Shown here in pieces: positions 4,333 to 19,054 of a stretch of DNA of 21,412 nucleotides. The DNA is from a virus: IMG/VR virus record IMGVR_UViG_3300030382_000762, positions 1-21,412 of that record; one strand, given 5' to 3'. A program made the position numbers and the translations under genes. Below the pieces are notes generated by a model. The model was not told the origin of the DNA. It searched no databases and worked only from the letters and a program-made list of their open reading frames with translations. Numbering within the stretch: position 1 is the stretch's first letter; each line of letters opens with the position of its first letter.

Positions 4333-4708
4333 TCCTCAAAAGAGGCTTCAAAGATTGCTTAAAAAAAACCCTCAATTAATAGAACTTGACACTATTAGAG
4401 TTATAGATACTGTTATAATAGATAATTACACTTATGATACCATTACAAACATACATTTACACGATAGCACTACAGTTATTAATAATGAAAAAGTTATTTT
4501 AAAATACTTCTATGACACACTTACAAGGGAAATATGGCACGAAGTCGAGTGCCTTGGCGATACGGTTATTAAGGAGACGGTCGTACAAGTTGAAAAGGTC
4601 GTTTATAAGCAGCTTACGTGGTGGGAGCAATATAGAACAATCATTTTAATATTATCTTTGATTGTAGGCATTCTAATTGTTTTAAAAAAATTAGGTAAGT
4701 TGATATAA
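4280..4708 (+). CDS. Lipoprotein with C-terminal membrane span: unimolecular spanin candidate
   Basis: This 142-residue protein starts at GTG inside the preceding gene. It has a lipoprotein signal peptide (residues 1-16) ending in the lipobox LSSC (Cys17). A polar, strand-rich middle region (about 30-110) is built of DTI/DTV repeats. A C-terminal transmembrane helix spans residues about 120-135, followed by basic residues (KKLGK). A lipid-anchored N-terminus in the outer membrane plus a C-terminal inner-membrane span is the defining architecture of u-spanins such as T1 gp11, which join outer and inner membranes in the last step of lysis. The 53-base nesting within the cell-wall enzyme gene recalls overlapping spanin genes. 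Its TAA shares one base with the next ATG. Confidence 0.65.
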   Translation: MKRYTAIALLILFLSSCSPQKRLQRLLKKNPQLIELDTIRVIDTVIIDNYTYDTITNIHLHDSTTVINNEKVILKYFYDTLTREIWHEVECLGDTVIKETVVQVEKVVYKQLTWWEQYRTIILILSLIVGILIVLKKLGKLI

Positions 4709-6045
4709 TGGGGAGGAAAAAAGGCTTTAGAAAAAAGAACAGTATTTATGCTACTTTAGAGACTTTAATTCCAGTTATAGAAGATTTTATAATAAAGGGT
4801 CATCATACTACAACAACTATATTTAAACAATTAGAATTAGAGGGCTATTTAGTTAAATTATATAATCAAGGATATAAAGGAGATTCAATAAGAAGAAGCA
4901 TAAACAATTTTATAAAAGATAAGAATTTAATTGTAAAAAATGCTCCAAGTTATGCTCTAACGACTGCAAAAGAAAATACAAAATGGGAGGAAGATTACGA
5001 AAACGGAACGGCTTCATTTGATTACTCAGGATTAAAGAAAATACAAACAGAAGAAGATTTAATAAAGTTTGCTAAAATAGATACTACAAAATGGAAAGCA
5101 GTAAAACAAACTGCTAATAAATGGGGCGAAAATTACCAAATAAAAGTAATATTTGAAAGTGTAGAAAAAGGATTAAAAGAAGAGGAAGCATACGAACAGG
5201 CAAAAGAGATATTAAAGAAACATCTTAAAGGAAGAAAAAAAATATCTAATAAGAAAAAACTAACTACAAAGATAGGTGTTATACCGTTAGCAGATTTTCA
5301 CATAGGAGCATACATAAGGGGTTTAATTAAAACGCCAGATTTTGACATAGACAGAATAACTGATATGTTAGATGAAATTGCAGACACTATTAATTCTTTA
5401 AATTATTCAGAAGTTCATATATCTATCTTAGGAGACATTATAGAAAGTTTTACAGGCACAAATCATCCTTCAACGTGGAAAGAGTTAATGTATAAAGGCT
5501 ACGGCTCTAATATCATAATAATGGCCTATGAGTTGTTATTGTCGTTTTTTAAAAAGATAGTTAATTTACATTCTATTTATTTAGTTTCAGGAAACCACGA
5601 TAGGATTACTTCAAGCAGTAAAGAAGACACCAAGGGCGAAGTAGTAGAGTTAATTTCTTATTTTTTAAATAAAGAATTAGATGTTAATATTAAATATAAT
5701 CCTATTTTAATTACTGAAATAATAGATAACATTTGCTATATCTTTACACACGGACACCATAATTTTACAAAAAAGAACATAGAGCAGACTATCTGGAAAT
5801 ATGGAAAACAAAAATATTTTAATTTAGTTCTTCAAGGACACTGGCATTCTAGAAAAAGCAAAGTTCCTGTAATTAAAATGGAAACTATTCACTCAGATTC
5901 TGGAGATTATAGAGGTATAACGTGCCCTAGTATTTTTACTGGGAATTTCTACGCTGAAACTTCAGGCTTTACATCTTCTGCTGGGTTTCTAATCATTCAA
6001 AATAAGCACAACAAACCCGCTGTTTTCGATATTCCTTTAATTTAA
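4708..6045 (+). CDS. Calcineurin-like metallophosphoesterase with N-terminal basic/helical domain
   Basis: A 445-residue protein. Residues 1-180 are basic and helical, with a winged-helix-like section (about 12-85) and a Lys-rich stretch (170-188). Residues 189-440 form the metallophosphoesterase domain with all core metal ligands: D196 and H198 (ADFHIG), D243 (LGDIIE), N296/H297/D298 (SGNHD), H348 (FTHGH) and H378/H380 (GHWH). Such enzymes are two-metal phosphodiesterases or phosphatases. The putative DNA-binding N-terminus suggests a nucleic acid substrate, perhaps a nuclease like the Mre11/SbcD branch. It starts at the stop of the spanin candidate and is the last gene before the early promoter region. 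The substrate is not known. Confidence 0.75.
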   Translation: MGRKKGFRKKNSIYATLETLIPVIEDFIIKGHHTTTTIFKQLELEGYLVKLYNQGYKGDSIRRSINNFIKDKNLIVKNAPSYALTTAKENTKWEEDYENGTASFDYSGLKKIQTEEDLIKFAKIDTTKWKAVKQTANKWGENYQIKVIFESVEKGLKEEEAYEQAKEILKKHLKGRKKISNKKKLTTKIGVIPLADFHIGAYIRGLIKTPDFDIDRITDMLDEIADTINSLNYSEVHISILGDIIESFTGTNHPSTWKELMYKGYGSNIIIMAYELLLSFFKKIVNLHSIYLVSGNHDRITSSSKEDTKGEVVELISYFLNKELDVNIKYNPILITEIIDNICYIFTHGHHNFTKKNIEQTIWKYGKQKYFNLVLQGHWHSRKSKVPVIKMETIHSDSGDYRGITCPSIFTGNFYAETSGFTSSAGFLIIQNKHNKPAVFDIPLI

Positions 6046-6196
6046 ACAAAAAAAATACTTTTCTAAAGTGTTCATTTTCAAGCGTTTACAAAAAAAGTGT
6101 AAAATAAATAAAAAATAAGTGTAAAAAAATTTGCTATATTAAAATTTTGTATTAATTTTGGTCTTACAAATCAATTATTAATTAAAATAAAACAAA
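6046..6196 (+). promoter_or_regulatory. Early-region intergenic regulatory segment
   Basis: This 151-base gene-free stretch divides the late and early blocks. It holds a short hairpin candidate (ACTTT 6057-6061 with AAAGT 6065-6069). The word AAGTGTAAAA occurs twice, at 6095-6104 and 6117-6126, 22 bases or two helical turns apart. An inverted pair TTTACA (6085-6090) / TGTAAA (6098-6103) is also present. The repeats lie just upstream of a good promoter and could be a repressor or activator site. No strong terminator was seen for the upstream operon. Confidence 0.5.
6130..6160 (+). promoter_or_regulatory. Bacteroidota-type promoter for the early operon
   Basis: TTTG at 6130-6133 and TAATTTTG at 6153-6160 match the -33 (TTTG) and -7 (TAnnTTTG) boxes of the main sigma factor of Bacteroidota, with 19 bases between them, the usual spacing. 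Transcription would start near 6164-6168, about 30 bases before the first early gene (6197). It is the only place in the window where both boxes were found together outside genes. Confidence 0.65.
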
Positions 6197-6415
6197 ATGA
6201 AAACAACAACTAAAAGATTTAAAATGTTAAATCAAATTAAAGAAGGAAGAAAAATAGCTGCTAAACAAATGTTAGATAAATTCATTTGTAAAGGAGAATT
6301 ATTAGTAAAATTAAATAAAATAGCAAAAGAAGGATATTACATCGAAAATGGTAATTTAATCACTTTAGTAAATTCTAGTAAATTAAAAAGAAATATATCT
6401 TTTTGCAAAATATAA
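6197..6415 (+). CDS. Small basic early protein, function unknown
   Basis: A 72-residue, Lys-rich protein, the first gene after the early promoter. The sequence is helical to about residue 45 (NQIKEGRKIAAKQMLDKFICKGELLVKLNKIAKEG, in pieces) and then has a short strand pair (YYIENGNLITLV). It starts with MKTTTKRF after an A-rich leader (AAAATAAAACAAA), as do several genes here. Small basic first early proteins of phages often act on host transcription or replication, but no family is recognised and that role is only a possibility. Confidence 0.55.
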   Translation: MKTTTKRFKMLNQIKEGRKIAAKQMLDKFICKGELLVKLNKIAKEGYYIENGNLITLVNSSKLKRNISFCKI

Positions 6416-6419
6416 AAAA

Positions 6420-6554
6420 ATGAAAACAACAACGCAATTTAAGATTAAACAAGTATGGGGTTCGTGGGAAGTTTACCAATTTAATGGAATGACTTACACT
6501 TACTATGCTAAATTTGAAACAAAAAATGAAGCATTAAAATTTATAAAAAAATAA
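6420..6554 (+). CDS. 44-residue early protein
   Basis: A short frame starting MKTTTQFKIKQVWGSWEVYQ and ending FETKNEALKFIKK, 4 bases after the previous stop. The sequence reads as a three-strand sheet followed by a helix, with aromatic residues spaced as in small beta-alpha phage proteins, and the start has the same MKTTT beginning as the gene before it. Coding is supported by its ordered amino-acid pattern and the A-rich leader. Function unknown. Confidence 0.55.
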   Translation: MKTTTQFKIKQVWGSWEVYQFNGMTYTYYAKFETKNEALKFIKK

Positions 6555-6557
6555 AAC

Positions 6558-6677
6558 AGAAGGAGAGAAAACTAACCCTTTGCGAACTGATGAAGGCAAA
6601 GTATAAAAAATAAAATCAGTTGAAAAAATACGTTGAAAAAACAAAAGTGAATACAAAAAAAACTCTCCTTCTTTTTT
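6558..6677 (+). ncRNA. Candidate structured RNA: closing stem, H-type pseudoknot, U-run
   Basis: This gene-free stretch can form a 10-pair perfect stem AGAAGGAGAG (6558-6567) with CTCTCCTTCT (6663-6672), followed by a run of T to 6677. Inside lies a hairpin CTTTGC (6578-6583) / GCAAAG (6596-6601). Its loop word AACTGAT (6585-6591) is perfectly complementary to ATCAGTT (6615-6621), making an H-type pseudoknot with a one-base first loop and an A-rich 13-base last loop (6602-6614). The last part before the closing stem is A-rich and holds a direct repeat GTTGAAAAAA (6619-6628, 6632-6641). The stem plus U-run could end an independent RNA; it could also be a regulated leader of the gene at 6695. 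No known RNA family was recognised. Confidence 0.5.
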
Positions 6678-6694
6678 ACTAAAAACAAAACAAA

Positions 6695-6895
6695 ATGAAA
6701 ACAATCTACATACACGATACAACGACACTATGGGCAGAAAATGGAGAAGTTCATATAGAAACTTGTAATGGAGATTTATTAGTTTTTAGAGCAGAAGCAT
6801 TATTTAATGATTTACCTGCCTTAGCAACCTTTTGCTTAAAAGAAATTGAAGGAAATAAAAAGAATATATTAAAAGAATTAAAAGAATTAAAATGA
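6695..6895 (+). CDS. Small early protein, function unknown
   Basis: A 66-residue protein with two or three strands at the N-terminus (TIYIHDTTTLWAENGEVHI) and a C-terminal helix rich in Lys, Glu and Leu. It begins 18 bases after the U-run of the structured RNA candidate and follows the conserved ACTAAAAACAAAACAAA leader. Its TGA overlaps the ATG of the Cys-rich gene (ATGA), so the two are likely co-translated. No family recognised. Confidence 0.55.
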   Translation: MKTIYIHDTTTLWAENGEVHIETCNGDLLVFRAEALFNDLPALATFCLKEIEGNKKNILKELKELK

Positions 6896-7065
6896 GAGAT
6901 AAATACGATAAATTTAACCCTGAAAACCAAGAGCAAGATTGCGATTATTGTAAAAAATGTGATAGTCCAATGTGGGATGACTGGAATGATGAGCCAGTAG
7001 ATTATTGTCCTTCTTGTGATGAATGTCAAGACTGTAAAGAATTAGAATGTAAATGTATAAACTAA
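6892..7065 (+). CDS. Cys-rich small zinc-binding protein candidate
   Basis: A 57-residue, very acidic protein with nine cysteines, eight of them in spaced pairs: CDYCKKC (18, 21, 24), CPSCDEC (40, 43, 46) and CQDC/CKC near the end. Paired CxxC knuckles suggest one or two zinc-ribbon-like sites. It starts at an ATGA overlap with the gene before. Zinc-ribbon peptides of this size in phages are often protein- or nucleic acid-binding regulators; which applies here is not shown. Coding is well supported because such ordered cysteine spacing is unlikely by chance. Confidence 0.6.
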   Translation: MRDKYDKFNPENQEQDCDYCKKCDSPMWDDWNDEPVDYCPSCDECQDCKELECKCIN

Positions 7066-7076
7066 AAACAAATAAA

Positions 7077-7307
7077 ATGAAAACAAAAAATAAGATGAAT
7101 AATAACGTAGATATAGAAGAAGACATAGATATAACTCAAACAAGTATAGCAATAACAAGCCTTTGCTCAGTATTAAATATTATACAAAACAATAGAAATG
7201 ATGAAGTTAAATTCTATAAATATATATTTAGAGCAAAAGAACTGCAAAGGCGTCTTTATGAAATGGAATCGGAGTTAAAGAAACAATTAAGAAATATTAA
7301 TAACTAA
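7077..7307 (+). CDS. Small helical early protein, function unknown
   Basis: A 76-residue protein starting at 7077, where ATGAAAAC follows the conserved leader AAAAACAAATAAA. An earlier in-frame ATG at 7053 lies inside the preceding gene and lacks the leader, so it was not chosen. The sequence has an acidic start (VDIEEDIDI), a hydrophobic helix (SIAITSLCSVLNII) and a long charged helix (AKELQRRLYEMESELKKQL) that may form a coiled coil. No family recognised. Confidence 0.55.
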   Translation: MKTKNKMNNNVDIEEDIDITQTSIAITSLCSVLNIIQNNRNDEVKFYKYIFRAKELQRRLYEMESELKKQLRNINN

Positions 7308-7319
7308 AAAACAAATAAA

Positions 7320-7670
7320 ATGAAAACACAAATCAAAACAATCAACATTAAAGGCAAAGATTACATTACTGTAAACGAACGCTTAAAGGCATTTAGAGAG
7401 CTATACAAGAGTTTTAGCCTAACAAGTGAAATAACACACCTAAACGAGAATGGAGTAATTATAAGAGCAAGTATTAAAGATGATAAGGGCGTAGAATTAG
7501 CTTCAGGAATAGCACACGAAGTAAAAGGTTCTAGCTTTATTAACAAGACTTCTTTTATAGAGAACTGCGAGACATCAGCTTGGGGGCGTGCTTTAGGAAA
7601 CTTAGGAATTGGAATTGATGCCTCAGTAGCGAGTGCTGATGAAGTTATTAATGCTATAAACAATCAATAA
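7320..7670 (+). CDS. Single-strand annealing recombinase-like protein (ERF / Rad52-like)
   Basis: A 116-residue protein with the pattern DYITVNERLKAF (residues 14-25), a strand-rich centre and the segment ENCETSAWGRALGNLGIG (81-98). That segment fits the conserved 'E.T.A.GRAL..LGIG' region of phage annealing proteins of the ERF/Sak3/Rad52-like group. These bind single-stranded DNA and pair complementary strands. At 116 residues it is short for the group, so it may be a core-only form. An exonuclease of the type that works with such proteins is encoded about 600 bases downstream (8272). The leader is again ACTAAAAAACAAATAAA. Confidence 0.6.
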   Translation: MKTQIKTINIKGKDYITVNERLKAFRELYKSFSLTSEITHLNENGVIIRASIKDDKGVELASGIAHEVKGSSFINKTSFIENCETSAWGRALGNLGIGIDASVASADEVINAINNQ

Positions 7671-7904: not shown

Positions 7905-8275
7905 AAGCAAGAACAAAACAATACATTAAGAATGTAAAAAACGGCTTTTTAAAAAGCAATAACGAAAAGGTATTACACTGGATCAAACACAACCCTATGA
8001 CTACAGTTTATGAATTAAGACAAACAGGTATAAGCCATCAGACTTTAACAAGTAGAATTTCACACCTTCAAGACTTAGGATTAATTAAAGTTGTAGGAAA
8101 TTGTAATATAGAAGGTAAACATTATTCGCAATACGAAGCAGTCTTAGATTCTGAAATGGTAGAACATTATAGAAACTCTAGAGAACAAGAAAAAGTCCTT
8201 ACGTGGCTTAAAAAAGGTCAAGAATTAAACATTAGAGAAGATTTAAAAGTAGTATTAGAAAATTATATAGTATGA
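7901..8275 (+). CDS. Winged-helix DNA-binding protein
   Basis: A 124-residue protein. Residues about 22-75 form a winged helix-turn-helix: KVLHWIKHNPMTTVYELRQ, then TGISHQTLTSRISHLQDLGLIKVVG, ending in a beta wing. This is the pattern of MarR/ArsR-type and phage regulatory winged helices. The rest (100-124) is a short helical end (EQEKVLTWLKKGQEL). Overlaps of 4 bases with both neighbours place it in the recombination operon. It may act as a regulator or a replication accessory, but its binding site cannot be told from the sequence; the nearby palindrome 8977-8988 is one candidate. Confidence 0.6.
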   Translation: MKARTKQYIKNVKNGFLKSNNEKVLHWIKHNPMTTVYELRQTGISHQTLTSRISHLQDLGLIKVVGNCNIEGKHYSQYEAVLDSEMVEHYRNSREQEKVLTWLKKGQELNIREDLKVVLENYIV

Positions 8276-8955
8276 AAAAGAGATTAAGTTATTCGGCATT
8301 AAGTGCCTTTGGTAAAAGCCCTAATCATTTACTTAGATACTGGAGTAAGAAATTTGAGCCAACATCTGCTATGATGTTAGGAAGTTTAATACATAAAATA
8401 ATTCTAGAGCCTGATGATTTCGATAACGACTACGCAGTATTTGAAGGAACACGAAGGGGCAAAGTCTGGGAGGGTTTTAAAACTGAAAATGAAGGCAAAG
8501 AGTTAGTGACTATAAAAGAATATGACATAGCTAATTATGTAGTTGAGCAATCAAAAAATAATAAGACTTTTATGGACTTATTAATGAGAACAAGCCAAAC
8601 AGAAAAATTAATTACTTGGAAGTCTCAAGGAATAGAATTTAAAGGTTTTGTTGATATGGTAGGAGATACTTTTATAGCTGATATAAAAACAACTGTAGAC
8701 GCTGGAGATAAGTTTCAAAGAGATATAACCTATAATGATTACAAAATGCAAGCAGCTATGTATCTTGAGTGTTTTCCTGATAAAGATTTTTACATTATAG
8801 CAATAGAAAAGTCTGGAGCGTTTAACGTTCAGGTTTATAAATTTAGTAATAGTATGCTTTTACAAGGAAGAAATAAGTATATAAATTTAACAGAAAAGTA
8901 TAAAGAATGGAACGGAGAAAAAGAGAGTTATTATGATGGAATTATTGAGATATAA
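8272..8955 (+). CDS. PD-(D/E)XK phage exonuclease (RecE / DUF3799-like)
   Basis: A 227-residue nuclease. It opens LSYSALSAFGKSPNHL, typical of the family, followed by MLGSLIHKIILEP (His41), FKGFVDMVGD (Asp128), IADIKTT (Asp137, Lys139) and DYKMQAAMYLE (Gln160, Tyr164). These are the His, Asp, D-x-K and QxxxY positions of the RecE/lambda-exonuclease/Cas4-type active site, all intact. Such enzymes degrade one strand of duplex ends, giving single-stranded DNA for the annealing protein encoded at 7320. It starts at a 4-base overlap and is the last gene before the repeat-rich segment. Confidence 0.8.
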   Translation: MKKRLSYSALSAFGKSPNHLLRYWSKKFEPTSAMMLGSLIHKIILEPDDFDNDYAVFEGTRRGKVWEGFKTENEGKELVTIKEYDIANYVVEQSKNNKTFMDLLMRTSQTEKLITWKSQGIEFKGFVDMVGDTFIADIKTTVDAGDKFQRDITYNDYKMQAAMYLECFPDKDFYIIAIEKSGAFNVQVYKFSNSMLLQGRNKYINLTEKYKEWNGEKESYYDGIIEI

Positions 8956-9120: not shown

Positions 9121-9179
9121 AAATAAAATAAGATGAAAGAAAAGATAATGCAATATAAATTTTTTAGAGACAATTTTGA

Positions 9180-9224
9180 GTTCCAAAAGGAACAAGCCTC
9201 AAGCGAACAGGCTTTTAAGTTCGC
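9180..9224 (+). promoter_or_regulatory. Hairpin and H-type pseudoknot in the SSB gene leader
   Basis: A perfect hairpin GTTCC-AAAA-GGAAC (9180-9193) is followed at once by stem AAGCCT (9194-9199) / AGGCTT (9209-9214). The stem's loop word GCGAAC (9203-9208) is perfectly complementary to GTTCGC (9219-9224), giving an H-type pseudoknot with loops CAA and TTAA. A purely A/C stretch (9225-9240) then leads to the ATG at 9241. Position and shape recall the pseudoknot in the T4 gene 32 leader, where SSB represses its own translation. Confidence 0.5.
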
Positions 9225-9240
9225 ACAAAAAAAACAAACA

Positions 9241-9504
9241 ATGGAAAAGAATAAAATTTTCGCAGATGGTTTTATATTTAAAAGACCAGACAACACACCT
9301 GACTTTATAGTAGGTAAAATGAGTGTTAAAGTAGATGAAGCAATAAAATTCTTAAAAACCCATACAAAAAATGGCTGGGTAAATATGGGAATTAAAAGGG
9401 CTAAATCAGGTAAGTTTTATATGGAGTTAGATACTTGGGAGCCTAAACAACAGACAGTAAAAGAAGGTAATGGGTTTGAAGATTCTAATGATTTACCATT
9501 TTAA
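9241..9504 (+). CDS. Single-stranded DNA-binding-like protein
   Basis: An 87-residue protein from ATG 9241: strand-rich, with KIFADGFIFKRPDNTPDFIVG, a helix (DEAIKFLKT) and strands WVNMGIKRAKSGKFYMELDTWEP. It ends in the acidic tail FEDSNDLPF, whose acidic residues and final Pro-Phe are the hallmark of SSB tails that recruit replication and repair partners. An in-frame ATG at 9133 would add 36 residues. I prefer 9241 because it follows an A-rich leader (ACAAAAAAAACAAACA), the core domain starts there, and the extra part coincides with the pseudoknot. It lies between recombination and replication genes. Function is inferred from tail and context; the fold is not proven. Confidence 0.6.
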   Translation: MEKNKIFADGFIFKRPDNTPDFIVGKMSVKVDEAIKFLKTHTKNGWVNMGIKRAKSGKFYMELDTWEPKQQTVKEGNGFEDSNDLPF

Positions 9505-9750: not shown

Positions 9751-10881
9751 ATGAAAAAAATAAAATTAATAATAAAAGAAAAATTAAAAGATTTGAATTT
9801 TGATGAAAAAGTGAATTTTACAAATGAATTAAAATTTTTTTTACACGAAAACAGCCCTTTTAAAAATGAGCCTGTAGATTTTGTAAAATGGGTAAAAAGT
9901 GATGAAATAGTAGCAAACGATTATAATCCAAATAAAGTAGCCCCTCCAGAAATGGAACTTTTGGAAGTTTCTATAATGAATGATGGCTATACGCAACCTA
10001 TAGTTACTTGGAATAATTTTGAAAAAGATAAAATTGAGGTTATTGATGGATTTCATAGAAATAGAGTTGGTAAAGAATCTAAAATTATTAACAAAAGAAT
10101 AAAAGGTTATTTACCTGTTGTAAATATAAGAAAAGAACAGTCAAGCAAAAATGATAGAATAGCTTCAACAATAAGACATAATAGAGCAAGAGGTAAACAT
10201 CAAGTTGATGCAATGAGCGAAATAGTAATAGAATTAAAAAACAGGAATTGGAGTAATAAAAGAATATCTAAACAATTAGGAATGGATGAAGAAGAAGTTT
10301 TAAGACTATGTCAAGTTTCAGGATTAGAGCATTTATTTTCTGATAAAGATTTTAATAGAGCGTGGATTTCAGAAGAATCAAACGAAAATTATATCCCTAC
10401 TCACGATAAATTATTGCCTTTAGAAATTGCTCAATATCGTGCTGGAAACACAAATGACCCTAATAGAATTTTTCATACATTTGATAAGTGGGAGTGCTAT
10501 CCGTCTGGTTTTTATGAAAACTCTATTAAAGATAAAAGTCACGAAGAATGTGAGGCAATTTTTATAGATGTATTAACTAATAAAGTAAGATTTGCTAATG
10601 CTTTAAATGGAGTAATATCTAATTGGAAATATTCTTGTGAACATTATTTAACTAATGTAAGTATGAATAGAATAGCGTGGTTAGGACAAGCGTCTGTTTG
10701 TTATGACAGTGGCGTTCCTTCAAAATATTCAGGTGCTTGGTTTAAAATAGATGAAAAGGAAAGGAAAATAGCTAATGAAATAGCTTTAAAGTATCTAAAT
10801 ATATGGCTGTTAAATAACAAAATGCCAGAAGTTGAAATGAATAGCGCTTTAAATATTGGAAAACAAATAGAATTATATTAA
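9751..10881 (+). CDS. ParB-like nuclease-domain protein (IbrB-like)
   Basis: A 376-residue protein. Residues about 43-150 form a ParB/Srx-type domain: VKSDEIVANDYNPNKV, a helix with SIMNDGYTQPIV, then VIDGFHRNRVG (98-107, the counterpart of the 'GERR' nucleotide-binding box) and IRHNRARGKHQVD (141-153). Residues 165-192 are a helix-turn-helix (NWSNKRISKQLGMDEEEV). The remainder (200-376) is unique to this kind of protein. ParB-fold proteins bind CTP or ATP and DNA. It lies 2 bases before a PP-loop gene; a ParB-like/PP-loop tandem is the layout of the IbrB/IbrA pair, known from E. coli prophage regions as regulators. Its role in a phage is unknown. Confidence 0.65.
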   Translation: MKKIKLIIKEKLKDLNFDEKVNFTNELKFFLHENSPFKNEPVDFVKWVKSDEIVANDYNPNKVAPPEMELLEVSIMNDGYTQPIVTWNNFEKDKIEVIDGFHRNRVGKESKIINKRIKGYLPVVNIRKEQSSKNDRIASTIRHNRARGKHQVDAMSEIVIELKNRNWSNKRISKQLGMDEEEVLRLCQVSGLEHLFSDKDFNRAWISEESNENYIPTHDKLLPLEIAQYRAGNTNDPNRIFHTFDKWECYPSGFYENSIKDKSHEECEAIFIDVLTNKVRFANALNGVISNWKYSCEHYLTNVSMNRIAWLGQASVCYDSGVPSKYSGAWFKIDEKERKIANEIALKYLNIWLLNNKMPEVEMNSALNIGKQIELY

Positions 10882-10883
10882 TT

Positions 10884-12092
10884 ATGAGTAAAAAAAGAGA
10901 ATTAAATATATCAGTTTTGGACGCTTCAAGAAGTAGAATTAGTAGAATTTTTGATGACTTTGAGAGAATTTATATAAGTTTTAGCGGTGGTAAAGATTCA
11001 ACTGTTATGACGCATTTAGTTTTAGATGAAGCGAAAAAAAGAAATAAAAAAGTAGGTTTATTAATTATTGATTTAGAAGCGCAATATAATTCAACAATTG
11101 AACATATAGAAGAAATAATTGAAATGTATTCAGAGCAAATAGAATTACACTGGTTTTGTGGCGAATTGCTTTTGAGAAATGCAGTATCTGATTTTGAGCC
11201 TAAATGGATTTGTTGGGATGAAAGTAAGAAAGATTTATGGGTAAGAAATAAACCTAAATTAGCTAGTGATTTATCTCAATATGATTTTTATGTTCCTAAA
11301 ATGGAATTTGAAGAATTGATGGTTATATTTGGAGAATGGTATTCTCAAGAAAAAAAATGTGCTGCTTTTATAGGTATTCGTTCTGATGAAAGTTTACATA
11401 GATATAGAGCAATAACATCTGAAAAAAAGGGATTAATTCATAAAAATTATAAATGGACTACTAAATTAAATAAAAATTTATATAATGTTTATCCTATTTA
11501 TGATTGGAGAACAGAAGATATTTGGATCTTTCATTTAAAAAACAATCATTTACCTCATAATAAAGTATATGATTTAATGACTAAGGCTGGGGTTAAATTT
11601 GGAGACCAAAGACTTTGCCAACCTTATGGAGATGACCAGAAAAAAGGATTATGGCTTTATCATATTTTAGAACCAATGACTTGGTATAAATTAATAAATA
11701 GAGTAAGCGGTGTTAATTCTGGTGCTTTATATGTTAAAGAACGTGGTAGTATTAATGGAAATACTTTTATTGATAAGCCTAAAAATCATACTTGGCAAAG
11801 TTATACGAATTTTTTATTAAAATCTTTACCTAAAAAAACCCAAAATAATTATAAGCAAAGATTTGAAAAATTTATAGCTGGATGGCTTCAAAGAGGTTAT
11901 AAAACTATACCAGATGAAGCCCCTCATATATTAGAGGTTAAATGTTGGGCTCCTTCTTGGAAACGTATGACAAGATGTATATTAAGAAATGATTATTATT
12001 GTAAAGGTCTTGGACAAACGCAACCTAAATCAGAAGCCTATGAAAAATATAAATCCATAAAACTTAAAAGAAAAATTGAAGCAGAACTTTAA
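10884..12092 (+). CDS. PP-loop (PAPS-reductase-like) protein, IbrA-like
   Basis: A 402-residue protein with an intact PP-loop ATP-pyrophosphatase motif FSGGKDST (33-40). It also has LLIIDLEAQYN (59-69), FIGIRSDESLHR (162-173) and VYPIYDWRTEDIW (202-214), matching the nucleotide- and substrate-binding segments of PAPS reductase relatives. A long C-terminal part (about 240-400) with Cys245, Cys354, Cys365 and Cys373 fits the DUF3440/IbrA group. PP-loop enzymes adenylate a substrate, often for sulfur transfer (tRNA thiolation, DNA phosphorothioation by DndC). It follows the ParB-like gene after 2 bases, so the two are one unit. Chemistry and target here are not known; true PAPS reduction is unlikely in a replication block. 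Confidence 0.7.
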   Translation: MSKKRELNISVLDASRSRISRIFDDFERIYISFSGGKDSTVMTHLVLDEAKKRNKKVGLLIIDLEAQYNSTIEHIEEIIEMYSEQIELHWFCGELLLRNAVSDFEPKWICWDESKKDLWVRNKPKLASDLSQYDFYVPKMEFEELMVIFGEWYSQEKKCAAFIGIRSDESLHRYRAITSEKKGLIHKNYKWTTKLNKNLYNVYPIYDWRTEDIWIFHLKNNHLPHNKVYDLMTKAGVKFGDQRLCQPYGDDQKKGLWLYHILEPMTWYKLINRVSGVNSGALYVKERGSINGNTFIDKPKNHTWQSYTNFLLKSLPKKTQNNYKQRFEKFIAGWLQRGYKTIPDEAPHILEVKCWAPSWKRMTRCILRNDYYCKGLGQTQPKSEAYEKYKSIKLKRKIEAEL

Positions 12093-17323: not shown

Positions 17324-17753
17324 ATTCTGTGAAGTATATGCAAATACTAGCTGCCCTTCTAAAGCATACAAAGCAGCCTATGATATAAGTCCAACTACTA
17401 AAATGAGTTCTATTAGTGTTAATGCTTCTAAGTTATTACAAAAGACTAATATAGCACTAAGAATCAAAGAGTTAAAGGATCAACTAGCTGCAAAGCATTT
17501 TGTTACTAGAGTAGATATAGCTAATGGTTACTTAGAAATAATAAACGCTTGGAAGGGTTTAATGACATTAGCAAGTCAAGACAAACTAACAAAAGAACAA
17601 ACACAAAAATTCTATTTACTTAAAGAGATGGTTAAGGGTTCAGACTATAGAGGCGCATTTGATAGCTTAGCTAGAATGTATGGACTTAATGAGCCTGATA
17701 AGATAGACATACGCCAAGAGATAGTAAACATTAGCATAAATCTAGGCGAATGA
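17295..17753 (+). CDS. terS: Terminase small subunit
   Basis: A 152-residue protein. It opens LTVKQNKFCEVYANTSCPSKAYKAAY, the standard start of Terminase_2 (XtmA-like) small subunits, whose helix-turn-helix (about 5-50) recognises the packaging site on phage DNA. SVNASKLLQKTNIALRIKEL continues the family pattern, and the C-terminal part (70-150) would form the oligomerising ring. It overlaps the large-subunit gene by 4 bases (ATGA), the expected order. The nearby DNA may include a pac or cos site, but none could be picked out. Confidence 0.75.
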   Translation: MSKLTVKQNKFCEVYANTSCPSKAYKAAYDISPTTKMSSISVNASKLLQKTNIALRIKELKDQLAAKHFVTRVDIANGYLEIINAWKGLMTLASQDKLTKEQTQKFYLLKEMVKGSDYRGAFDSLARMYGLNEPDKIDIRQEIVNISINLGE

Positions 17754-19054
17754 ATGTAGAGCCTAAATTCACAACTAAACAAAAACAAGCATTAAAGTAT
17801 TTAGTAGACAATAAAACAAACGAAGTATTATTTGGTGGTGCTGCTGGTGGTGGTAAGTCTTGGATTGGTGTAAGCTGGTTAATAGTACAATGTTTTAAAT
17901 ATCCAAAGGTAAGATATTTAATGGGGCGTAGTAAACTGGACGCACTAAAGAAAACAACCTTAAACACGTTCTTTGAAGTTTGTAATGAATGGGAGTTAAA
18001 AGCAGACACGCACTATAAGTTTAATGCTAGTAGTAATGTAATAACCTTTTACAACGGTTCTGAAATACTATTAAAAGATTTGTTCTTATATCCTTCTGAC
18101 AGAAACTTTGATAGCTTAGGAAGTCTTGAAATAACAGGAGCGTTTATTGACGAAGCAAATCAAATAACAGAAAAGGCTAAAAATATAGTAATGTCTAGGA
18201 TTAGATATAAACTAGATGAATATCAATTAGTTCCTAAGTTATTAATGACTTGTAATCCAGCTAAGAACTGGGTTTATACTGATTACTATAAGAAGTCAAA
18301 AGACGGCACATTAGAAGGGTATAAAAAGTTTATACAGTCATTAGTTGATGATAATGATTATATTTCTAAACATTATGCAGAACAATTATCTAAATTAGAC
18401 GAAGTAAGTAAACAAAGGTTATTATTTGGTAATTGGGAGTACGATATAAACTCAGATAACTTAATAGACTATGACAGTATTTTATTAATGTTTGATAATA
18501 CAGGAATAGAAGGAGATAAATATATTACTTGTGATGTTGCTAGATTAGGTAATGACAAAAGCGTAGTAATGCTTTGGAATGGCTTACAAGTGGAATTAAT
18601 AAAGTCATTCGATAAGAACACAATAACAGAATTAGCTAACTACATAAAAGAATTACAAGTTAAGCATAGAGTAAACCTCAAAAACATTATAGCAGATTCT
18701 GACGGTGTAGGTGGTGGGCTTGCTGATATATTAAGATGTGTTAATTTTATAAACAACGCTAGGCCTTTTAATAATGAGAACTACCAGAACTTAAAGACTC
18801 AATGCTATTATAAGCTATCAGATTTAATTAATAAAGCACAAATAGGAGTTACTGCAACTATGCAAGAAAAGAATAAGCTAATAGAAGAACTAGAGCAAGT
18901 AAGAGCAAAGGATATAGACAAAGATACAAAGTTAAAATTAATTCCTAAAGATATAGTAAAAACAATAATAGGAAGAAGCCCTGATTATTCGGATTGCTTA
19001 ATGATGAGAATGTATTTTGAATTTAACAAAAGAGGCTTTTATTCAATTAGGTAA
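17750..19054 (+). CDS. terL: Terminase large subunit
   Basis: A 434-residue packaging motor. The N-terminal ATPase has Walker A FGGAAGGGKS (28-37), Walker B GAFIDEA (130-136, with Asp134 and Glu135) and the coupling motif LLMTCNP (164-170). The C-terminal nuclease has acidic metal ligands at Asp262 (TCDVARLG), Asp316 (IADSDGVGGG) and Asp412/Asp415 (PDYSDCLM). These match TerL proteins that translocate DNA into the head and cut concatemers. Length and motifs are complete, so the gene is intact. It overlaps terS by 4 bases, and a chaperone-like gene, not portal, follows 28 bases later. Confidence 0.9.
   Translation: MNVEPKFTTKQKQALKYLVDNKTNEVLFGGAAGGGKSWIGVSWLIVQCFKYPKVRYLMGRSKLDALKKTTLNTFFEVCNEWELKADTHYKFNASSNVITFYNGSEILLKDLFLYPSDRNFDSLGSLEITGAFIDEANQITEKAKNIVMSRIRYKLDEYQLVPKLLMTCNPAKNWVYTDYYKKSKDGTLEGYKKFIQSLVDDNDYISKHYAEQLSKLDEVSKQRLLFGNWEYDINSDNLIDYDSILLMFDNTGIEGDKYITCDVARLGNDKSVVMLWNGLQVELIKSFDKNTITELANYIKELQVKHRVNLKNIIADSDGVGGGLADILRCVNFINNARPFNNENYQNLKTQCYYKLSDLINKAQIGVTATMQEKNKLIEELEQVRAKDIDKDTKLKLIPKDIVKTIIGRSPDYSDCLMMRMYFEFNKRGFYSIR

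Follow-up and report, generated by a model that had tools for sequence, protein, structure and literature searches.

A candidate cis-acting intercistronic RNA with a predicted stem-closed pseudoknot in the early region of a phage genome

What is the nature of the approximately 127 bases that separate two small early genes (a 44-aa ORF at 6420-6554 and a 66-aa ORF at 6695-6895) in the virus record IMGVR_UViG_3300030382_000762? This IMG/VR record, possibly a fragment, consists of 21,412 bases and was analysed at its full length (hereafter, the window). An initial annotation had described these bases as a compact structured RNA that could either be a free phage RNA or serve the gene at 6695 as a riboswitch-like leader. 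The gene content of the window is tailed-phage-like, including the terminase large subunit (17750-19054), a phosphoesterase (4708-6045) and a PDDEXK-like protein (8272-8955); in addition, a ParB_N-like gene (under the Pfam cut-off) adjoins a PAPS-reductase/DUF3440 gene at 9751-12092. The best named relatives of the phosphoesterase are found in phages of Cellulophaga (42% identity, 63% of the query), Olleya and Tenacibaculum, and the gene starts of the window have A-rich leaders without Shine-Dalgarno sequences, as is described for Bacteroidetes genes in a part of PMC6847099. Because of these two features, the host of the phage is likely a member of Bacteroidota.

The features of the element are listed in Table 1. 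All three stems described initially are exact reverse complements (6558-6567/6663-6672, 6578-6583/6596-6601 and 6585-6591/6615-6621), and the A-rich crossing loop (10 of 13 bases at 6602-6614) and the terminal U-run (six T at 6672-6677, the first of which belongs to the closing stem) were also confirmed. The order of the pseudoknot is that of the classical H-type, except for a 4-nt L2 (6592-6595); two interleaved stems, a short L1 (1 nt, 6584) and a crossing L3 (13 nt) are present as sequence complementarity only. The 10-pair closing stem was exact but had been drawn too short, as it extends outwards to 6552-6567/6663-6678 with 15 of the 16 positions paired. The closing helix has an A-tract/stem/U-tract shape with 5 G+C among the 10 perfect pairs, encloses a 95-nt loop and ends 16 bases upstream of the ATG at 6695. 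The description of the region as gene-free holds in that no plus-strand ORF of at least 50 aa crosses the element, but one plus-strand frame is codon-like (with two stops). The 44-aa ORF falls below the 50-aa limit of the ORF list, and a mechanical 64-aa GTG ORF is present on the minus strand over the element.

Table 1. Features of the intercistronic element and of the adjoining genes
Feature	Positions	Strand	Description
44-aa ORF	6420..6554	+	MKTTTQFKIKQVWGSWEVYQFNGMTYTYYAKFETKNEALKFIKK; stop codon TAA 6552-6554 inside outer closing stem; from translation
Closing stem, 5' arm	6552..6567	+	10 perfect pairs 6558-6567 plus 5 A-U pairs; C-U mismatch at 6557
Pseudoknot stem S1, 5' strand	6578..6583	+	CUUUGC; exact complement check
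Pseudoknot stem S2, 5' strand	6585..6591	+	AACUGAU; exact complement check
Pseudoknot stem S1, 3' strand	6596..6601	+	GCAAAG; exact complement check
Crossing loop L3, A-rich	6602..6614	+	13 nt, 10/13 A
Pseudoknot stem S2, 3' strand	6615..6621	+	AUCAGUU; exact complement check
A-rich linker up to closing stem	6622..6662	+	41 nt, without strong structure
Closing stem, 3' arm, and U-run	6663..6678	+	U-run 6672-6677
A-rich leader and start of next gene	6679..6703	+	one of 7 window copies of AAACAAAATGAAAACA (<=2 mismatches)
66-aa ORF, downstream of element	6695..6895	+	in 3 related records without the RNA

The nested minimum free energy (MFE) of 6550-6690 is -23.1 kcal/mol (z -4.7), and none of 200 shuffled sequences folded as well; the minus strand gave a z of -3.2, again with 0 of 200 shuffles as good. 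Among the 853 plus-strand windows of 130 nt, the element ranks second in folding z; the lowest value (-4.8) was obtained at 9201-9330, inside the ORF at 9133-9504. When the gap 6555-6694 was taken without the outermost pairs, its z was -3.05, rank 43 in 190 gaps of AT-rich loci. The MFE fold of 6550-6690 retains the closing stem and the 7-pair S2 but not the 6-pair S1, whereas the centroid fold retains the closing stem and S1. This split is as expected if both inner stems are strong, since a nested model has to choose between them. In the MFE fold of the 356-nt context, the closing stem and S2 persist and the start codon at 6695 is unpaired. The 44-nt pseudoknot core alone, folded as a nested structure, is less distinctive (z -1.6, 13 of 200 shuffles as good). 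With stacking energies of -9.4 (S1) and -10.8 kcal/mol (S2) and a pseudoknot penalty of approximately 10-11, we estimate by hand that the pseudoknot core would reach roughly -9, whereas its best nested fold gives -5.7.

The initial assertion that such pairings are unlikely by chance is borne out inasmuch as the fold exceeds shuffled sequences, with descriptors set after the element had been seen. Because the descriptors follow the element and the site had been picked among many, the following figures are not clean probabilities: the 6+7 pseudoknot arose in 1 of 20000 shuffles of the inner loop, and a 10-bp stem at the same distance in 62 of 20000 segment shuffles (in none with at least 5 G+C), while in whole-window shuffles of one strand the pseudoknot alone was present in 2115 of 5000. 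A 10-bp closing stem accompanied it in 28 of these 5000 shuffles and in none of them when four or more G+C were required in that stem; a looser run with a closing stem of 9 gave the combination in 3 of 200. The architecture with a closing stem of at least 9 and a 6+7 pseudoknot was absent from both strands of 83 loci (686 kb). Under looser rules (5+6 pseudoknot, closing stem of 8 with 3 G+C, A-rich L3), the window contained the sole instance among 135 AT-rich loci of mixed origin, partly overlapping (1.03 Mb, both strands). Few others came up in a less strict search for closing stems with a T-run behind them.

The statement that the RNA belongs to no known family holds as far as Rfam 15 goes, with 0 gathering-score matches in the whole window. 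At E<=10, the only match was to RF01100 (PK-BYV), the nearest Rfam model, which has the same stem order, a 1-nt L1 and an A-rich L3. The match covers the full length of the 40-position model (6576-6619; E 0.057 in a 161-base search); its 18.7 bits, however, are far under the gathering score of 50, and RF01100 represents a plant-virus 3' end. The likeness is therefore one of common topology and not of kinship.

Searches at the DNA level were equally negative. A 701-base blastn query against phages yielded three weak matches (best E 0.7), a 126-base query against phages yielded none, and the plasmid search with the element DNA yielded none. In IMG/VR, exact patterns of the element matched once, within an ORF of locus L004, and a gapped core pattern did not match; the 16-nt core was found in 94 stretches, of which 14 extend S1 by at least two pairs or contain part of S2 and not one does both, and the closing-stem pattern was found in 10 stretches. 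The covariance model R1 reaches only close kin because it was built from one sequence (two overlapping stretches). With this model, 90 of the 104 pattern-matched loci (14 of the 94 core loci being left out) gave nothing at E<=3, and the window plus 87 loci gave 17 other matches at E<=10 (best 22 bits), 7 of which were inspected and all 7 overlap ORFs. Among 50 whole records, R1 matched at E<=1 in 11 (best 22.2 bits; the best one was aligned), and a single match in 395 Bacteroidia-class genomes (34 bits) lies inside a 443-aa ORF with several closing-arm pairs broken. A 136-base blastn query against 395 genomes of the phylum found short matches in 77 genomes (best 28 bases); five of eight such loci viewed are mostly A-rich runs with the stems in none, and the match in L218 lies within an ORF. 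Thus, the covariance-model search suggested by the initial annotation, run as R1 over these sequence sets together with the DNA searches, provided no homologue to align for covariation, and the matches inspected lacked this structure.

Several known RNA classes resemble the element in part. Type III toxin-antitoxin RNAs (ToxI-like) consist of tandem repeats accompanied by a ToxN-like gene. They share with the element a pseudoknotted RNA adjoining a small gene, but an antitoxin RNA of this type was rejected here, as there are no tandem repeats and no toxin family among the four neighbouring small ORFs. Defence-related neighbours were likewise rejected. The L17 downstream element and the manA and wcaG leader RNAs, as presented in parts of PMC2864571, are structured RNAs beside coding regions that may be cis-regulatory, like the element, and manA and wcaG are stated there to occur in phages; in contrast to the element, for which no member was found, each has many members, and none has an Rfam match in the window. 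The STAXI motif, as far as the same parts of PMC2864571 describe it, is similar in being mainly a pseudoknot and in lying near DNA-handling genes, but it is repeated two or three times, whereas a single copy is present here with neither a tandem repeat of that size nor an Rfam match.

Other candidate RNAs were found in related loci. Five hammerhead-like motifs are present in four loci (CTGATGA at L038:675, L050:494, L065:1905, L070:717 and L070:1954, plus strand). Their stems I, II and III differ in sequence yet still pair, and the stem II pair adjoining the core is A-A or T-T. In hammerheads, this pair is usually G-C. Rfam did not call the motifs in L038, L050 and L070 at the gathering score, nor that in L050 at E<=0.5. 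Hammerheads in phage intergenic regions have previously been described in parts of PMC3088659. The hammerhead core consists of CUGAUGA together with stem II and GAAA. The element itself contains CUGAUGA at 6587-6593, but a hammerhead was rejected there because the core-plus-stems scan that found these five was negative in the window, which also lacks an Rfam match.

A second candidate is a two-member intercistronic RNA (L073:958-1033 and L067:4754-4829; shared core AACTNNGCNGTTATACTTTGT), which is stem-closed and lies directly downstream of a phrog_11717-type gene (7320-type protein; for relatives of this protein, the best 80 of 461 loci were used). In these two sequences only, 4 of the 10 closing-stem pairs are changed on both sides in a trimmed alignment, and a separate RNAalifold run also gave four such pairs. 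This RNA has no Rfam match, and its covariance model (R2) found only L073 and L067 among 92 sources and none in 395 genomes. Kinship with the element was rejected, as the best R2 score in 6500-6720 with filters off was 7.3 bits, compared with 93-94.5 for the members; a 10-mer, CAAAGTATAA, is common to the element and to this RNA on the opposite strand and has 13 occurrences in the loci scanned. In L073 and L067, these unrelated RNAs, which covary and are closed by a stem, lie after a stop codon and before the A-rich leader of the next gene, so that stem-closed intercistronic RNAs do occur in this phage group. In addition, two gaps with similar stem-rich sequence (L055:2740-2894 and L063:3252-3398), with GTTAATACTATTAG within a G+C-rich stem, perhaps represent one more RNA family.

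The neighbourhood of the element appears to be built of small-gene cassettes, and the gene content around it varies among close relatives. The sequence AAACAAAATGAAAACA (<=2 mismatches) occurs seven times in the window, every time at a gene start, compared with 0.33 copies expected, and 0 of 100 shuffles reached seven. These leaders are located at 6190, 6413, 6688, 7070, 7313, 7688 and 9744. Being nearly identical, they are candidate recombination points between cassettes. The leader of ORF 6197 aligns with the leader of the 66-aa gene in L007; therefore, the window has approximately 0.5 kb extra (ORF 6197, ORF 6420 and the RNA) between two such leaders, and recombination between leaders would be a simple explanation for this segment. 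The 44-aa ORF has a codon score of 12.9 over 44 codons (0.29 per codon), within the range of the window's genes, but no relative of it was detected in Pfam, PHROGs, NCBIfam or PADLOC, nor in phage records, IMG/VR patterns or 395 Bacteroidia genomes.

The explanation that we favour, tentatively, is that the element may be the structured 3' part of the 44-aa cassette (which starts at 6413-6420) and may act in cis on the early mRNA, as an attenuator or a nuclease barrier. The RNA would be co-transcribed with the early operon; S1 and S2 would stack, with the A-rich L3 lying in the shallow groove of S1, and the pseudoknot would bring the two ends of the 95-nt loop close to each other, allowing the closing helix to form beside the U-run. 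Acting in cis, this helix would then either terminate part of the transcription or block 3'-5' exonucleases, and the output of the upstream ORFs (6197 and 6420) would be set apart from that of 6695 onwards. The exact stems, the low MFE z, the chance controls with a single instance in 135 loci, the persistence of the closing stem and S2 in the 356-nt fold, the A-tract/stem/U-tract, the cassette borders, the stem-closed RNAs of L073 and L067 and the hand-estimated energy of the core all argue for a cis-acting element. In contrast, the failure to find a homologue, the codon-like frame, the likeness of 6596-6610 to a gene-end/leader junction and the middling rank as a plain gap (43 of 190) count against it. 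The element shares with intrinsic terminators an A-tract, a stem with 5 G+C in 10 perfect pairs and six U, but these terminators consist of a short-loop, G+C-rich hairpin followed by a U-run, whereas the 95-nt loop here holds a pseudoknot and places the element outside the class; a terminator scan with loops of 3-8 found no terminator-like site in 5900-7400.

A less probable but possible alternative is that the fold is fortuitous and marks a decayed gene junction, in which cassette shuffling would have left behind the end portion of a gene since lost (frame 6556-6606, ending in ...TEGEKTNPLRTDEGKV and a stop) followed by a ruined leader (6607-6625). The codon-like frame of the element scores +13.8 over 41 codons, compared with -7.7 and -7.2 for the other frames, a best-frame score that was reached by 13 of 2000 shuffles; per codon, it scores 0.34 against an off-frame 99th percentile of 0.17, as trained on the window's own genes. 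Moreover, 6596-6610 is identical at 14 of 15 positions to the gene-end/leader junction at 6405-6419, with the TAA of the frame at 6604 followed by leader-like sequence, and the variable gene content at the site would fit such a history. However, a gene remnant of this kind leaves the stems unexplained, as well as the rarity of their combination in the whole-window shuffles and in the AT-rich loci. The codon-like frame (6556-6693, plus strand) also has two stops and no start (no ATG), and it has no relative in the loci compared.

It is rather unlikely that the element is a free phage RNA acting in trans on host or phage targets, with a 3' end at the U-run (approximately 6677) and a 5' end near 6552-6558 that is either native or produced by processing. 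The compact closed fold with its U-run would suit such an RNA, as would a downstream start that is not visibly occluded in the 356-nt fold. However, because the 44-aa ORF has its stop codon within the 5' arm, a free RNA would need excision from the mRNA or a transcription start inside the gene, and promoter-like sites in 5900-7400 (sigma-70 type only) are no commoner than in shuffles (10 versus 9.6). The lack of any homologue found also argues against it.

We consider it improbable that the 44-aa protein has a cognate partner in the stem-closed pseudoknot RNA, the two forming a swappable cassette at the head of the early operon, inserted through leader recombination, in which the RNA would be a docking site or regulator of the protein. 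If this reading were true, neither partner would be covered by a known family.

The initial suggestion of a riboswitch-like leader for the 66-aa gene at 6695 is very improbable, even though the element lies directly upstream of this gene with its U-run 17 nt before the start codon. The RNA has no counterpart in any of the three records found with the 66-aa gene (L085-L087, on the contigs of L005-L007). On the L007 contig (L088), a promoter region (TTGCAC, 17 nt, TATAAT by eye) leads straight into the 66-aa gene, and on the L005 and L006 contigs (L089 and L091) a different small ORF lies between the promoter region and this gene; other genes follow the phosphoesterase in L092-L094, and L090 stops there. 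On the cassette view, the RNA would be part of the 44-aa ORF's cassette and would not go with the following gene, a second argument against a leader. Furthermore, no switch is visible in the sequence because the three stems are mutually compatible; no competing pairing was seen by eye, and the start codon is left unpaired in the 356-nt fold. No Rfam riboswitch was matched either.

Finally, -1 frameshifting was rejected. The slippery heptamer A AAA AAA (6545-6551) is in frame and is followed by the stop, a 6-nt spacer and the closing stem, at a fitting distance to 6558; a shift there would add 20 residues to the 44-aa protein. The added stretch, however, does not score as codon-like (-4.6 for 20 codons), and 38 genes contain 12 in-frame A AAA AAA heptamers, of which one other likewise lies 9 nt short of a gene end.

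Without a homologue, the element is a candidate only, and its role is unproven. If the fold is real, the early operon of this phage would contain an orphan RNA between its cistrons, outside all Rfam models, at a place where the small genes vary from one close relative to the next. In combination with the hammerhead-like motifs and the two-member RNA that covaries, it would then hint that these phages equip their small-gene cassettes with RNAs that shape the mRNA.
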